From NCBI RefSeq assembly GCF_024623785.1, contig NZ_JANKBZ010000004.1:124001-188000 (forward strand): a DNA stretch of 64,000 nt, given 5' to 3'. The stretch is from Archangium lipolyticum (GTDB lineage Bacteria > Myxococcota > Myxococcia > Myxococcales > Myxococcaceae). Shown in pieces: positions 8,932 through 17,039 of this stretch (the first letter of the stretch is position 1; every line of letters starts with the position of its first letter). The position numbers and the translations under genes are program-made. The notes under the pieces were generated by a model. That model was not told where the DNA came from, searched no databases, and worked only from the letters and a program-made list of their open reading frames with translations.

Positions 8932-9981
8932 CTACTGCATGGGTCTGGCCGCCTTTCCGCCCGCACCCGGGGTGGAAAATGGTGGGCGGGGTGACTGGAA
9001 CACCCGCAGCAGGAAGAAGAGGGACGGGAAGATGAGGGCTCCCCCCACCGCGAGCGCCACCAGGAGGGCCCGCTGGGTGGCCACGTTCGCCGCCGCGCCC
9101 TGGAGGGTGACGTCCGGCACCACGAGGTAGGGGTACTGGGAGACCGCCCACCCCGAGACGATGAGGCCCACCTGTGCCGCCGCCGCCACGCGCGCCGGCC
9201 AGAAGTGTCGGGTGAGCAACAGTCCGAAGGCCAGCACCGCCGCCACCGCCGTGGCCGCGTGCAGCCCCAACGCGAAGGGAGAGCCCGTCAGCCCCGACCA
9301 CACCCGGGGTGCCCCACCCCGCGCCAGCAGCAGCACGCCGAAGGCCGCGAGGAACACCGCCACGCCCGCGCCCAGCGCCCGCCGCCGGAAGTCCTCCTGG
9401 AGCGCGGGCTCGCGCGTCTCCGCCGTGAGGTACACCGCCGCCAGGAAGGCGAAGAGGCACAGCGCCAGCACGCCCACCGCCAGCGCGAAGGGCGACAGCC
9501 ACGCGGAGAGGAAGCCGCTCACCACGGCGAGCCCCTCCACCTGGATGTCTCCGCTCACCATCGCGCCCACGCACATCCCCAGTAGCAGGGGCGCCAGCAC
9601 GCTCGCCACGCTGAAGACGAGCCCCCAGCGCCGCTGCACCTTGTCCCCCCGCGCGTCGTAGGTGCGGAAGGTGAAGGCCGTACCCCGGAAGACGATGCCC
9701 AGCAGCAGCAGCGTCAGCGGCACGTGCAGCGCCACCGACAGCACCGCGAAGGCCCTCGGGAAGACGCCGAAGAGGATGACCACGCCGATGATGAGCCAGA
9801 CGTGGTTCACCTCCCACACCGGCCCGAGTGCCCTGGCGATGAGCGCCCGCTGTTCCGCCTTCCGGGGCCCCGAGGCCAGCAGGTCCCACACCCCGCCGCC
9901 GAAGTCCGCGCCTCCGAAGAGCGCGTAGAGGACGAAGCTGCCCACCAGCGCTCCGCCCAGCAACCACAGCTCAGTGGACAT
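8932..9981 (-). CDS. cydB: cytochrome bd ubiquinol oxidase subunit II
   Basis: The haem-free partner subunit of cytochrome bd quinol oxidase in the inner membrane, 349 residues with about eight to nine hydrophobic segments. Family signatures include LFGGADFGGGVWDLLASG near the start, PVWEVNHVWLI and FRGTAFTFR. The start codon overlaps the end of cydA by 11 bases, so the two are translated as one operon. No small CydX-like reading frame is evident after it. Confidence 0.92.
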   Translation of the reverse strand: MSTELWLLGGALVGSFVLYALFGGADFGGGVWDLLASGPRKAEQRALIARALGPVWEVNHVWLIIGVVILFGVFPRAFAVLSVALHVPLTLLLLGIVFRGTAFTFRTYDARGDKVQRRWGLVFSVASVLAPLLLGMCVGAMVSGDIQVEGLAVVSGFLSAWLSPFALAVGVLALCLFAFLAAVYLTAETREPALQEDFRRRALGAGVAVFLAAFGVLLLARGGAPRVWSGLTGSPFALGLHAATAVAAVLAFGLLLTRHFWPARVAAAAQVGLIVSGWAVSQYPYLVVPDVTLQGAAANVATQRALLVALAVGGALIFPSLFFLLRVFQSPRPPFSTPGAGGKAARPMQ

Positions 9982-11299
9982 GGGCCACCTCCGAGGGGGG
10001 CGCGCGGCCCGGCAGCGTGCCCGCCACCTGCCGCACCAGGAGGAACACCACCATCGCCCCCAGGAAGAGATAGACGAGCGTGAACGTCCAGAAGGGTACC
10101 GCCAGGTGCGTCACCGGCGTCACCGCGTCCGCCGTGCGCATCACCCCGCGGATGATCCACGGCTGGCGTCCCCACTCGGTGACGAGCCACCCCGCCTCCA
10201 TCGCCACCACCCCGAGCGGTCCACACAGCAGCCAGCCCCACAGCACCCGCCGGCCCTCGGGCCACGCCTTGTGCCGCCAGCGCAGGAAGAGCGTCACCAC
10301 CGCCAGCAGCGCCATCAGCCCTCCCGTGCCCACCATGACCTGGAAGGCCAGGTGCACCTTGAGCACCGGCGGCCACTCGTCACGAGGGAAGTCGTTCAGG
10401 CCCTTCACCTCCGCGTCCGGATCCCGGAACGCCAGGATCGACAGCCCCTTGGGTATCTCGATGGCGTAGGGCGTGGTACCCGTCTCCACGTCCGGCAGCC
10501 CGCCCACGCTCAGGGGCGCGCCCCGCTGCGTCTCGAAGAGGCCCTCCGCCGCCGCCAGCTTCACCGGCTGCGCATGGGCGATGTGCTCCGCCTCCAGGTC
10601 TCCCGCGAAGGGCTGCAGCAGCGCGGTGACGCACGCGAGCGGCAGCGCCACGGAGAGCGCCTTGCGGTGGAAGGCGGCTCCCGGGTGCCGCAGCAGCACG
10701 AAGGCGTGGATGCCCGCCATGGCGAAGGCGCTGGCCTGGTAACACGCGAGCAGCGTGTGCAGGACCTGATAGGCCCAGCCCGGGCTGAACATCGCCGCCA
10801 CCGGATCCACGTTCACCGGCCCGCCCGCCGTGGGCGTGAAGCCCGCCGGGTGGTTCATGAAGGCGTTCACCAGCGTGACGAAGAAGGCGCTCGCCGCGCC
10901 GCTCACCGCCACCATCACCCCCGAGAAGAGGTGCAGCCCCGCCGGTATCCGCTCCCTCCCGTACAGATAGATGCCGAGGAACACCGCCTCGGTGAAGAAG
11001 GCCGTCCCCTCCAGCGCGAAGGGCAGCCCTATCACTTCTCCGTATGTCCCCATGAACGCGGGCCACAGCAGCCCCAGCTCGAAGGACAGCACCGTGCCGC
11101 TCACCGCCCCCACCGCGAAGAGGATGGCCGTGCCCTTCGCCAGCTTCTTGCTGAGCTCCACGTAGTCCGCGTCGCCCGTCCTCCGGGCCTTCACGTCACT
11201 GAGCACCATCAACAGGGGCAGCGCGATACCCGCGGCCGCGAAGATGATGTGAAAGGCGAGGGACAGCCCCATCTGGGCACGCGCGTAGAGCAGATCCAT
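9971..11299 (-). CDS. cydA: cytochrome bd ubiquinol oxidase subunit I, short Q-loop type
   Basis: The haem-bearing subunit of cytochrome bd, which oxidises quinol and reduces oxygen to water with high affinity; also known for tolerance to NO and sulfide. At 442 residues it is shorter than the roughly 520-residue E. coli form, because the Q-loop is short (CioA-like). Seen are an early His in LSLAFHIIFAAAG, the Q-loop QPVKLAAAEGLFET with conserved Lys and Glu, and GRQPWIIRG. Spacing to cydB (11-bp overlap) marks an operon. The upstream 125 bp is A+T-richer and presumably holds the promoter; I could not define an FNR or ArcA site. Confidence 0.92.
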   Translation of the reverse strand: MDLLYARAQMGLSLAFHIIFAAAGIALPLLMVLSDVKARRTGDADYVELSKKLAKGTAILFAVGAVSGTVLSFELGLLWPAFMGTYGEVIGLPFALEGTAFFTEAVFLGIYLYGRERIPAGLHLFSGVMVAVSGAASAFFVTLVNAFMNHPAGFTPTAGGPVNVDPVAAMFSPGWAYQVLHTLLACYQASAFAMAGIHAFVLLRHPGAAFHRKALSVALPLACVTALLQPFAGDLEAEHIAHAQPVKLAAAEGLFETQRGAPLSVGGLPDVETGTTPYAIEIPKGLSILAFRDPDAEVKGLNDFPRDEWPPVLKVHLAFQVMVGTGGLMALLAVVTLFLRWRHKAWPEGRRVLWGWLLCGPLGVVAMEAGWLVTEWGRQPWIIRGVMRTADAVTPVTHLAVPFWTFTLVYLFLGAMVVFLLVRQVAGTLPGRAPPSEVAHVH

Positions 11300-13684: not shown

Positions 13685-13942
13685 CTACTCGTCGCGGCCG
13701 AGGTTGACAACCGCCTGCAGTCTGGCCAGTACCGCCTCGGCGCCCTGGTGCAGGTGCACGCCATCCCAGAGCGCCGGTGTGCTGTGTCCACCACGCTCTC
13801 GCCAATCCGCCTCCGCTTCTGGAAAGGCGACATTGCGGAAGCGCACCCGGTCCTCGAGCGCGTAGTCCACCACGTAACGGCGCGCCGCCGCCGAGGGAGG
13901 ATCCGCGATGAGGTGGAAGAGCTCCAACACGGGCGACGTCAC
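13685..13942 (-). CDS. small glutaredoxin/thioredoxin-fold-like protein, no CXXC
   Basis: An 85-residue protein with the short beta-alpha-beta order of a glutaredoxin-like fold: VLELFHLIADPPSAAARRYVVD, a RVRFRNVAFPE strand, STPALWDGVHLH at the cis-Pro position, then a C-terminal helix. No Cys is present, so it is not a thiol reductase. It follows nsrR by 10 bases in the same direction and is probably the last gene of the NO-response operon. GTG 13942 is the likely start with only a weak ribosome site. The fold assignment is an inference. Confidence 0.55.
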   Translation of the reverse strand: MTSPVLELFHLIADPPSAAARRYVVDYALEDRVRFRNVAFPEAEADWRERGGHSTPALWDGVHLHQGAEAVLARLQAVVNLGRDE

Positions 13943-13952
13943 GGGAGGACCC

Positions 13953-14411
13953 TCAACCGACCCCGGCATCCGCCGTGGGCTTGAGGAAATAGGCGGACAG
14001 CTTGCGCGGGCTGCGGCGCAGGACGTCCTCCAGCGTGTACTTGTCCAACGAGGACTGGAAGGCGCGCGTGGCCTCGTTGAGTATGCCGATGAGCCCGCAG
14101 GCCGGGACGATGGGGCACTTGTTCGTCTCGGGATCGAAGCACTCCACCACGTGGAAGTCCGGCTCCATGCGGCGCACCACATCTCCCACGGAGATCTCCG
14201 ACGGGGGCCGCGCGAGGATCACCCCTCCCGCGCGCCCCGGCCGCACCTCCACGAAGCCATGCCGGCCCAGGCCCTGCATCACCCGGACGAGGTGGTGCTT
14301 GGAGATGCCATAGGCGTCGCTCACCTCGCCCGTGGAGACCACCCTGTCGGGGTTGGACGCCAGGTACAGCAGCACGCGCAGCGCGTAGTCAGCGTGAAGG
14401 GTCAGATGCAC
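13953..14411 (-). CDS. nsrR: Rrf2-family nitric-oxide sensor repressor NsrR
   Basis: A 152-residue Rrf2-type winged-helix repressor holding an NO-sensitive iron-sulfur cluster. The helix-turn-helix spans GEVSDAYGISKHHLVRVMQGL. C91, C99 and C105 (ECFDPETNKCPIVPACGL) and D8 reproduce the three-Cys-plus-Asp spacing known for Bacillus NsrR. Its 5' end overlaps the reductase gene by 23 bases. Two operators close to the NsrR consensus lie ahead of the globin gene, so the operon is presumably autoregulated: NO damages the cluster and releases repression. IscR is unlikely given the neighbours and operator. Confidence 0.88.
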   Translation of the reverse strand: MHLTLHADYALRVLLYLASNPDRVVSTGEVSDAYGISKHHLVRVMQGLGRHGFVEVRPGRAGGVILARPPSEISVGDVVRRMEPDFHVVECFDPETNKCPIVPACGLIGILNEATRAFQSSLDKYTLEDVLRRSPRKLSAYFLKPTADAGVG

Positions 14412-15405
14412 TCGTCGTCACCCCTATGCCCACCTGCGGCGGAGGTGTACTCGGAAGGAACGCATCCGCATGGATCTCCTTGAGCGACAGTCCGGCGAGG
14501 AAGAGCTTCTTCCTCAGGGATAGCACCAGGTCCGGGTTGCCGCACAGCCAGGCGCGCCAGCCGGCCGGCCGGGGGCATGCATCCTTGATGAGCGCATCGA
14601 GCGCACCGACGGAGACGCCCACCCGTTCCGGCCCTCTCAGAACACAAGGCCGGTACTGCAACTGGGGGTGACGGGACTGCAAGGCGCGCAGCTCGTCCAC
14701 GAGGTACAGCCCGGAGGCATCGACGGCACCGTGGAAGAGCCAGATGGGACCGGTGTGTCCCTGAGCCAGCGCGTCCCGGACGATACCGTACAGCGGCGCC
14801 AGACCCGTGCCCGACCCCGCCAGCAACAACGGTTGCTCCGGCCGCCCCGGCACGTAGAAGCATTCACCCGCGGGTCCTTGGAGCTCCACCGGATCTCCCG
14901 GCCGGGCCTCGTCGAAGAGCCACCCGCTCATGCGGCCTCCGGAAATCCGACGGACGTGGAGCTCCAACGTGTCCTCGTGCGGCTGGCTCGCGAGTGAGTA
15001 GCTGCGGGCCAGGCCATCGGCTCGAAGCAGGGACACGTACTGGCCGGCCCGGTACTCGAAGCCTCCCTCGGGGCGCAGCCGCACGCACAGCACGCTGTCG
15101 CTCAGACGCTCCAGCGAGGCGATGCGCGCGGACACCCGCAGGTCCGCGCCGGCGCTCGCCACCTCGAGCTCGGAGTCCGGACGGCACGCACACGCGAGGA
15201 AGTAGCCCTGGGCCTTCAGCGTCTCCTTCAGCCCCACCTGCGCCTTGGCCGGCACGTCTCCGCGCTCGGCCCGCATCAGACAGGACTGGCAGGCCCCCGC
15301 CCTGCACGAGTGCGGCACCGCCACGCCCCCCCGCAGCAGTCCGTCGAGCACCGACTCGCCCTCATCCAGCCCGTACCACTGGCCCTCGTGCTTCACCCTC
15401 GTCAT
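14389..15405 (-). CDS. 2Fe-2S / FAD / NAD(P)H flavoreductase
   Basis: A 338-residue electron-transfer enzyme in phthalate-reductase/BenC style, with ferredoxin at the N-terminus. Plant-type ferredoxin cysteines are in CRAGACQSC and a later ACACRP. The FAD site is ARSYSLAS and the nucleotide site LLAGSGTGLAPLYG, with CGNPDLV at the end. It lies 23 bases after the truncated haemoglobin gene and overlaps nsrR. I infer that it re-reduces the globin haem during NO dioxygenation, so that globin and reductase together do the work of one-chain flavohaemoglobin Hmp. Confidence 0.85.
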   Translation of the reverse strand: MTRVKHEGQWYGLDEGESVLDGLLRGGVAVPHSCRAGACQSCLMRAERGDVPAKAQVGLKETLKAQGYFLACACRPDSELEVASAGADLRVSARIASLERLSDSVLCVRLRPEGGFEYRAGQYVSLLRADGLARSYSLASQPHEDTLELHVRRISGGRMSGWLFDEARPGDPVELQGPAGECFYVPGRPEQPLLLAGSGTGLAPLYGIVRDALAQGHTGPIWLFHGAVDASGLYLVDELRALQSRHPQLQYRPCVLRGPERVGVSVGALDALIKDACPRPAGWRAWLCGNPDLVLSLRKKLFLAGLSLKEIHADAFLPSTPPPQVGIGVTTSASDPSR

Positions 15406-15428
15406 GTGCGTGCCCTCCCCCCGGCTCT

Positions 15429-15821
15429 TCAGCGGTTGAGCACGTCCGCGCGAGCGCCCTCGGCGATCTTCAGCACCTGCTCCACCAGCGGCGCAGGCAC
15501 ACCCAGCTCCGTCAGCGTCGCGCCCAGGTGCTCCGCCACCGCGTTGAAGTGCGTGTCGTTCAGCCCCTGCTTCACCAGGTGCGCGTGCCCCTTGCGCATG
15601 TCCTTGCCCGAGTAGGAGACAGGGCCTCCGCACACCATCGTGAGGAACGCCTTCTGCTTCGCCGCCTGGCGCTCCATGTCCACGTCCTCGAAGAAGTGGC
15701 TGATGCGCTCGTCCGACAGCACCTTCCGGTAGAAGAGCTCCACCGCCGCGCTCATCGCCGGCTCTCCGCCAATCTGCTCGTACAGGCTGGACGGCTTCTT
15801 CTCCGCGACGCTGTTCTGCAT
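15429..15821 (-). CDS. group I truncated haemoglobin
   Basis: A 130-residue 2-over-2 globin. The start LYEQIGGEPAMSAAVELFYRKVL has the B10 tyrosine position, VCGGPVSYSGKDMRKGHAHL holds the CD/E and F-helix region with the proximal His, and NDTHFNAVAEHL follows. Such proteins turn NO plus oxygen into nitrate when a reductase supplies electrons. First gene of the operon with reductase, NsrR and a small redoxin-like protein. The two NsrR operators sit 36-83 bp upstream of the ATG, and a GAGAGGGG ribosome site precedes it. Confidence 0.9.
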   Translation of the reverse strand: MQNSVAEKKPSSLYEQIGGEPAMSAAVELFYRKVLSDERISHFFEDVDMERQAAKQKAFLTMVCGGPVSYSGKDMRKGHAHLVKQGLNDTHFNAVAEHLGATLTELGVPAPLVEQVLKIAEGARADVLNR

Positions 15822-15856
15822 GTGCCCCTCTCCCCTGGCCTTCTTGGGCCGCCATA

Positions 15857-15879
15857 TTGATGCATTTCATATGCATCTT
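15857..15879. promoter_or_regulatory. NsrR operator 1
   Basis: A 23-bp near-palindrome with half-sites TTGATGCATTT and ATGCATCTT around a central CAT. It matches the published gammaproteobacterial NsrR consensus (AAGATGYATTT-N-AAATRCATCTT) at all but a few positions. It lies 36 bp before the truncated haemoglobin ATG. Confidence 0.85.
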
Positions 15880-15881
15880 TA

Positions 15882-15904
15882 AAGGTGCATATGTGATGCA
15901 CCTT
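15882..15904. promoter_or_regulatory. NsrR operator 2
   Basis: A second 23-bp site with perfectly matched outer arms AAGGTGCAT and ATGCACCTT, differing from operator 1 by an A-to-G change in each arm. Centre-to-centre distance to operator 1 is 25 bp, suggesting two repressor dimers bound side by side. Confidence 0.8.
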
Positions 15905-16004
15905 TTTTGACGCAGCGTCAAGTCGCCCCCCAGGGTCGGGGAGTGGAAGTGGGGCCCAGAAACGCGAAGAGGGCATCCCAGGACCCGAACACGGGACCCG
16001 AGAT

Positions 16005-16061: not shown

Positions 16062-16466
16062 TTAGCGCAGCGAGGCCGCGCTCATGCGCGCCGTCTCGCG
16101 GCGCACCGTCGCCTGCTCGATGTCGAAACGCACGTCGTCCGCCGACATGCCCTTGAGCCGCTCGGCGGCCTCCTGCATCCGGCGCCGCGCCGCCTCCACG
16201 TCGATGCCCGTCACCGACTCGGCCACGTCCGCCAGCACCAGCACCTTGTCGTTGCTCACCTCGACGAAGCCGCCCGCCACGAAGTAGTACTCGCGCCGCC
16301 CGCCGTCGATGAGCGTCAGCGGCCCCGGCTCCATCAGCGACAGGAACGGCGTGTGGCCCGGCCTCACGCCGAACAGGCCCTTGCCACCGGGGACGATCGC
16401 CTCGTCCGCCTGCACCGACAGGATGCGCTTCTCGGGGGTCACAATCTCGACCGTCAGCTTGGCCAT
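16062..16466 (-). CDS. atpC: F1 ATP synthase epsilon subunit
   Basis: The 134-residue rotor-stalk subunit that couples F1 to the c-ring and restrains ATP hydrolysis. The beta-sandwich domain shows LTVEIVTPEKRILSV, GLFGVRPGHTPFL and YYFVAGGFVEV, followed by the two-helix C-terminal domain rich in Ala and Arg. It is the last gene of the cluster, 30 bp after a secreted protein of unknown role and not directly after atpD as in most bacteria. Confidence 0.93.
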   Translation of the reverse strand: MAKLTVEIVTPEKRILSVQADEAIVPGGKGLFGVRPGHTPFLSLMEPGPLTLIDGGRREYYFVAGGFVEVSNDKVLVLADVAESVTGIDVEAARRRMQEAAERLKGMSADDVRFDIEQATVRRETARMSAASLR

Positions 16467-16496: not shown

Positions 16497-17039
16497 TCAG
16501 AAGGTCAGCTGGTGGGTCTTGCCGCCCACCGTCTCGAACTCGATGCGCCCGGCGTCCGTCAGGCGCGGGCCCTTGCCCGGAACCCCGAGCACGCCCTCCA
16601 ACCACTTGAGGTGCTGCGCCATCTGCCGCACCTCGGGCAACTCGCGCGAGCCCACGAACTCCAGCAGGCGCCGCTCCTGCACCTGGCCCCGGCGGGTATA
16701 CTGCGCCGCCACGGCCGTATTGGCCCACGCGGGTATCTTCCTGTTCTTCTTGCCGGCTAGCTTCACCGTGCCCTTGGGCGCCAGCGGGTAGAGCACCCAC
16801 ACCCGCTCCCCGTCATTGGAGACGAAGTACAGGTCGTCCACCCCGCCCACGCACTCCGCCAGCGTCCAGACGGGCCCGCTCTCCTTCGACACCTCCAGCG
16901 TGCACTGCCCGGGGTTCTTCTCCACCAGGCGCACACTGAAGGTACCGTTGGCGCTCACCCGCGTACGGCTGGAGCGCTCCGCGGCGGACACCGGGAGCGC
17001 CACCAGCAACAGCACCAGGACGAGGACGGATCGCAGCAC
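16497..17039 (-). CDS. secreted protein of unknown function inserted between atpD and atpC
   Basis: A 180-residue protein that I do not recognise. A clear Sec signal peptide (MLRSVLVLVLLLVALPVSA) is followed by a beta-rich body with WTLAECVGGVDDLYFVSNDGE and a Lys-rich patch near 95. Two Cys lie before residue 65 and may form a periplasmic disulfide. The start is GTG 17039, with GGGAGG eight bases upstream. Gaps of 30 bp on each side place it in the ATP synthase transcript, although a periplasmic product cannot touch F1. It could be a co-transcribed envelope factor or a chance insertion. Confidence 0.75.
   Translation of the reverse strand: MLRSVLVLVLLLVALPVSAAERSSRTRVSANGTFSVRLVEKNPGQCTLEVSKESGPVWTLAECVGGVDDLYFVSNDGERVWVLYPLAPKGTVKLAGKKNRKIPAWANTAVAAQYTRRGQVQERRLLEFVGSRELPEVRQMAQHLKWLEGVLGVPGKGPRLTDAGRIEFETVGGKTHQLTF

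Follow-up and report, generated by a model that had tools for sequence, protein, structure and literature searches.

The 64,000-nucleotide stretch of Archangium lipolyticum DNA analysed here (the window) carries, directly behind atpC, four closely spaced minus-strand genes for a truncated haemoglobin, a 2Fe-2S/FAD/NAD reductase, an Rrf2-type regulator and a small Cys-free protein. This raises the question whether the locus constitutes a nitric oxide defence operon under NsrR control, and which of the four genes belong to it. From comparison of the locus with its relatives we consider it highly probable that globin, reductase and nsrR (in the following the trio) make up a two-component NO dioxygenase operon that controls its own expression. 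An earlier note, made from the letters of the window, had placed all four genes in one tight operon behind two operators; the ORF list and the palindrome positions bear out the location of the four ORFs and both palindromes (Table 1), and the operon reading holds for the trio, while synteny in relatives contradicts it for the fourth gene.

Table 1. Features of the trio locus in the window.
Feature	Position	Strand	Description
atpC	16062..16466	-	trio positioned after it; context only, non-member
-35-like TTGAC	15917..15921	-	start-to-start 17 bp ahead of upstream operator
Upstream NsrR-type operator, AAGGTGCATCACATATGCACCTT	15882-15904	-	TTGAC spacing same as for the single operator of other genera
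Downstream NsrR-type operator, AAGATGCATATGAAATGCATCAA	15857-15879	-	better conserved of the pair in most Archangium
Globin gene	15821-15429	-	130 aa; group-I truncated haemoglobin (GlbN type)
Reductase gene	15405-14389	-	338 aa; plant-type 2Fe-2S + FAD + NAD
nsrR	14411-13953	-	152 aa, GTG start; Rrf2 family, probable NO-sensing repressor
Fourth ORF	13942-13685	-	85 aa, GTG start, zero Cys; neighbour, not functional member

By the ORF coordinates of the window, globin and reductase genes are separated by 23 bp, the 3' end of the reductase gene overlaps nsrR by 23 bp, and the fourth gene follows nsrR on the same strand after a gap of 10 bp. The local order is atpG-atpD-ORF-atpC-trio-fourth gene-ADP-ribosylglycohydrolase gene, the last being followed by small ORFs and cydAB. 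The ORF between atpD and atpC (16497-17039) encodes a 180-aa protein with a signal-like N-terminus, which is kept in most of the family. The cydAB genes, encoding the NO-tolerant oxidase cytochrome bd, lie at 8932-11299, and cydA is found downstream in several trio-less loci as well.

Close homologues of NsrR are present in 53 of 96 Myxococcaceae genomes and close homologues of the globin in the same 53, and each of the 47 fetched loci that contain both genes shows the order globin-reductase-nsrR; two draft genomes have the trio genes split over different contigs. In 37 genomes atpC and the fourth gene flank the trio; the remaining 16, which belong to genera g4 and g5 (Citreicoccus and Corallococcus), have it elsewhere. 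Since the copies of these two genera fall inside the family in the reductase tree, sister to Myxococcus/Pyxidicoccus (98/91), their placement suggests a relocation of the trio. The Myxococcaceae copies group together, nearest to some Acidobacteriota, with weak deep branches, and a transfer from Acidobacteriota is a possible origin. Beyond the family, a scan of species genomes with a reductase profile gave at least 80 loci; among the matches listed, 79 adjoin a globin gene, most have nsrR co-linear or divergent, the co-linear order recurs in Acidobacteriota, and in Pseudomonadota nsrR is mostly divergent. Linkage of globin, reductase and nsrR is thus conserved in Myxococcaceae and further afield, as the earlier note had demanded. 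Two records may be mentioned in passing: a Methylobacter contig holds two convergent globin-reductase pairs (L176:1708-5094), and a record titled Comamonas sp. KCTC 72670 holds the Myxococcaceae locus and is likely mislabelled.

The globin matches Pfam Bac_globin (PF01152, E 6e-19) and, with its His F8 and Tyr B10, shows the features of a group-I truncated haemoglobin. Its residues Y31(B10), Q52(E7), Q56(E11) and H79(F8) are invariant over 126 loci, and the position of K55(E10) is occupied by Lys in 124 and Arg in 2 of these. In the closest solved chains, Tetrahymena trHb and cyanoglobins, E10 aligns with Gln and His, respectively, and in a non-operon paralogue of the window's genome with Met; the invariant distal Lys/Arg is among the newer points of this system. 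A second group-I globin of this genome (L096:4433-4810), with Leu E7 and Met E10, is unlinked to reductase or NsrR genes. Both the operon globin and Chlamydomonas THB1 (PDB 4xdi) are group-I truncated globins, and THB1, whose heme is ligated by a distal Lys, was reported to act as an NO dioxygenase in vitro (PMC4304232; PMC11904497); by analogy, the E10 Lys of the operon globin may likewise be a heme ligand. THB1 differs in being algal and NIT2-controlled, with no linked bacterial reductase or NsrR. The reductase combines Fer2, FAD_binding_6 and NAD_binding_1 domains, and its cluster cysteines 33, 38, 41 and 71 (start Met excluded from numbering) are likewise invariant in the 126 loci.

That globin and reductase would replace one-chain Hmp, as suggested from the window, is backed by comparison: Hmp and trio never occur together in the 96 genomes, as Hmp is encoded by 8 of the 43 that lack the trio (7 full-length copies and one partial) and by 0 of the 53 that have it (one-sided Fisher 0.001, phylogeny ignored). 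Within genus g7, all 4 trio-less genomes and none of the 3 trio-bearing ones encode Hmp. Truncated globins have varied activities and the invariant Lys/Arg E10 could keep the resting heme pocket closed, so that the pair might, though NO-induced, mainly carry out other chemistry such as nitrite reduction or the handling of peroxide or O2. We regard this as unlikely, since the Y-B10/Q-E7/Q-E11 set resembles NO-dioxygenating trHbs, the exclusion of Hmp speaks against it, and THB1 displays its in vitro activity with a distal Lys in place (PMC4304232). An NO dioxygenase function of the pair is preferred. The wider proposal that lysine-gated (Lys/Arg E10) truncated-globin NO dioxygenases with dedicated 2Fe-2S reductase are a widespread class, which has the trio as its bacterial core and substitutes for Hmp across several phyla, is put forward tentatively, as a possibility we would not yet favour.

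Ahead of the globin gene, the twin 23-bp near-consensus NsrR sites claimed earlier were indeed found, 25 bp apart, where the first search pattern is expected to match 0.01 times by chance in the window. The 23-bp operator fits the published NsrR consensus gATGyAT-N5-ATrCATc (Rodionov 2005, PMC1274295), as do all 47 trio promoters; in each of these 47 loci an NsrR-type palindrome with 14-18 of 18 positions matched starts 24-85 bp ahead of the globin gene. TTGAC occurs near the operator in 43 of the 47 homologous promoters, and in 42 of these the two starts lie 17-18 bp apart; a sigma-70 scan found no full consensus promoter. Tandem sites with the 25-bp spacing are present in the window and five other Archangium loci and only in this genus, which places them among the newer points of this locus. 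Because the upstream site keeps the TTGAC spacing of the single site elsewhere, the downstream site looks like an added copy, although it is the better conserved one in most Archangium.

The 12.6-Mb genome was scanned for a regulon by pattern matching alone, and a loose NsrR pattern (up to two mismatches) led to four distinct places, namely both operators, one site before qNorB and one other. A total of 38 genomes have the strict motif RATGCATNNNNNATGCATY at a single place each, before the globin gene in 37 and before qNorB in one; it is absent from every trio-less genome among the 96 Myxococcaceae. In the genome of the window, the qNorB palindrome (G000:C5:433702-433723; L202:3702-3724) starts 155 bp before the gene. 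All 12 close qNorB orthologues, that of the window's genome included and each in a trio-bearing genome, are preceded by a palindrome (-145 to -172) with 13-18 of 18 positions matched, and a comparable site was found before 0 of 7 distant qNorB homologues. No more than 0.3% of shuffled sequences scored as high as the real sites; several Archangium sites are weak (13-14 of 18), and for two of them the share was 0.3%. One genome (G079:C8) carries a perfect palindrome between qNorB and a membrane protein gene (L201:3998-4020) and another palindrome before a cytochrome c-nosZ pair (L201:5264-5286). The candidate regulon of NO genes thus has sites at the globin operon, at qNorB and at one nosZ operon, and the sites at qNorB and nosZ argue independently for a regulator that deals with NO. 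The quinol NO reductase gene qNorB is probably a second NsrR target, a prediction that belongs to the newer points.

The regulator itself carries an Rrf2 winged-helix domain (Pfam Rrf2, E 6e-36). The D8, C91, C99, C105 ligand set read from the window is confirmed both by position and by conservation, with D8 in 117 of 117 NsrR copies and the three cysteines in all aligned copies. These four residues align with the ligand residues of 5n07, and the best solved relative is NsrR; in S. coelicolor NsrR, D8 is a cluster ligand. NCBIfam scores the protein slightly higher as RirA (126.6) than as NsrR (118.8 bits), both under cut-off, and the CX7CX5C spacing differs from S. coelicolor NsrR, which would fit a RirA-like iron or Fe-S sensor with an operon answering to iron state and not to NO. 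This identity is disfavoured and in our view very improbable, as the operator matches the NsrR consensus (PMC1274295), D8 is invariant, the nearest solved structure is an NsrR and further sites precede qNorB and nosZ. The 182-bit cut-off of the NsrR equivalog, which is a threshold for name assignment, weakens the equivalog label and not the claim that the protein works as NsrR. Comparative genomics, through palindromes, D8/Cys conservation and the other sites at NO genes, therefore backs the NsrR identity and its operator as first proposed.

The fourth gene is present as a single copy in 88 of the 96 Myxococcaceae genomes and also occurs in other Myxococcales families. In trio-less genomes it usually lies directly 3' of atpC, and where the trio is located elsewhere (Corallococcus/Citreicoccus) it is still found after atpC. 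A four-gene NO operon with the 85-aa thioredoxin/GST-like protein as dedicated partner, for which the short gap, the shared strand and the position immediately 3' of nsrR in 37 genomes would speak, is rejected as highly improbable on synteny, as 35 genomes carry the gene without the trio, mostly right 3' of atpC, the trio lies apart from it in 16, all non-Myxococcaceae trio loci are without it, and it is single-copy across Myxococcales with six loci from other families at other, trio-less places. Being adjacent to atpC without the trio and absent from trio loci outside the family, the gene is a neighbour, located 3' of nsrR because the trio separates it from atpC; it is perhaps co-transcribed with the trio yet not a functional member. 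The neighbourhood search proposed for this 85-residue protein across myxobacteria hence recovers linkage of the trio and not of its supposed partner. The earlier description as a Cys-less glutaredoxin-like protein is right as to the missing cysteines, and the active-site Cys of glutaredoxin is absent in every aligned relative; as to a thioredoxin fold, a weak GST_N similarity is seen in relatives (best GST_N_3, E 0.0008, under cut-off). The window protein has zero Pfam matches, its predicted structure is a poor model (pLDDT 49.5), and a PDB profile search gave chance matches only. As an observation in its own right, this core myxococcal protein after atpC shows the motif LFH-SA-R-FRN-GG-PALWDG.

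The concept of the trio is not new, since an operon of this design had been predicted for Legionella by 2005 (PMC1274295). There, glbN-lpg2536, a globin and a ferredoxin reductase, was found as the sole NsrR target in a genome without hmp and was predicted to substitute for Hmp under NsrR, with a proposed role in NO oxidation (Rodionov 2005, PMC1274295), a prediction repeated by Gardner 2012 (PMC3820574). Both systems share the operon of group-I globin and ferredoxin reductase, the NsrR site, the lack of Hmp and the proposed NO oxidation role, a likeness drawn from the published description of Legionella: here, too, an NsrR site precedes glbN and an adjoining reductase of the 2Fe-2S/FAD/NAD type, and Hmp is absent in the 53 trio-bearing genomes. 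What sets the present system apart from Legionella is the third place of nsrR in the operon, the tandem operators of Archangium and the probable second target qNorB. With the NsrR-controlled flavohaemoglobin Hmp of E. coli, B. subtilis and Streptomyces, the trio shares globin plus FAD/NAD reductase chemistry, and tandem NsrR sites are likewise predicted for B. subtilis hmp (PMC1274295), whereas the trio divides globin and reductase between two chains, its globin is of the truncated type and its reductase carries an additional 2Fe-2S domain. The Cgb proteins of Campylobacter and Acidithiobacillus are also single-domain globins for NO, and A. ferrooxidans Cgb adjoins a COG0543 reductase (PMC1274295); however, they belong to a different globin class and are under CRP/FNR-type regulators. 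Searches of an open-access library found no description of the trio in myxobacteria.

We propose a model in which a [4Fe-4S] NsrR dimer binds the two promoter-overlapping palindromes, as their conservation suggests, and represses globin, reductase and its own gene, and probably also the distant qNorB gene. As in characterised NsrR proteins, NO would destroy the cluster and thereby release NsrR from the DNA, which induces the operon. The oxy-globin would then convert NO and O2 to nitrate, and the 2Fe-2S/FAD reductase would use electrons from NADH to re-reduce the ferric globin between turnovers, two chains thereby doing the job of one-chain Hmp. We propose these catalytic steps, including the electron transfer between reductase and globin, on the grounds of the domain composition, the conservation of catalytic residues and the mutual exclusion with Hmp. 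The qNorB enzyme would serve low-oxygen conditions. The fourth gene may share the message and would not be needed for NO function.

The case shows how a core gene can pass for part of an operon through having a cassette next to it. Single-domain globins with a proven native reductase are few (Gardner 2012, PMC3820574), and the cassette supplies a candidate native reductase for such a globin in many lineages. With it, the prediction of 2005 that Hmp can be replaced by a truncated globin plus a separate ferredoxin reductase can also be put to a clean test. In the soil myxobacterium Archangium, the trio most likely destroys toxic nitric oxide, and the cassette would give predatory myxobacteria a small, concretely defined regulon for NO defence.
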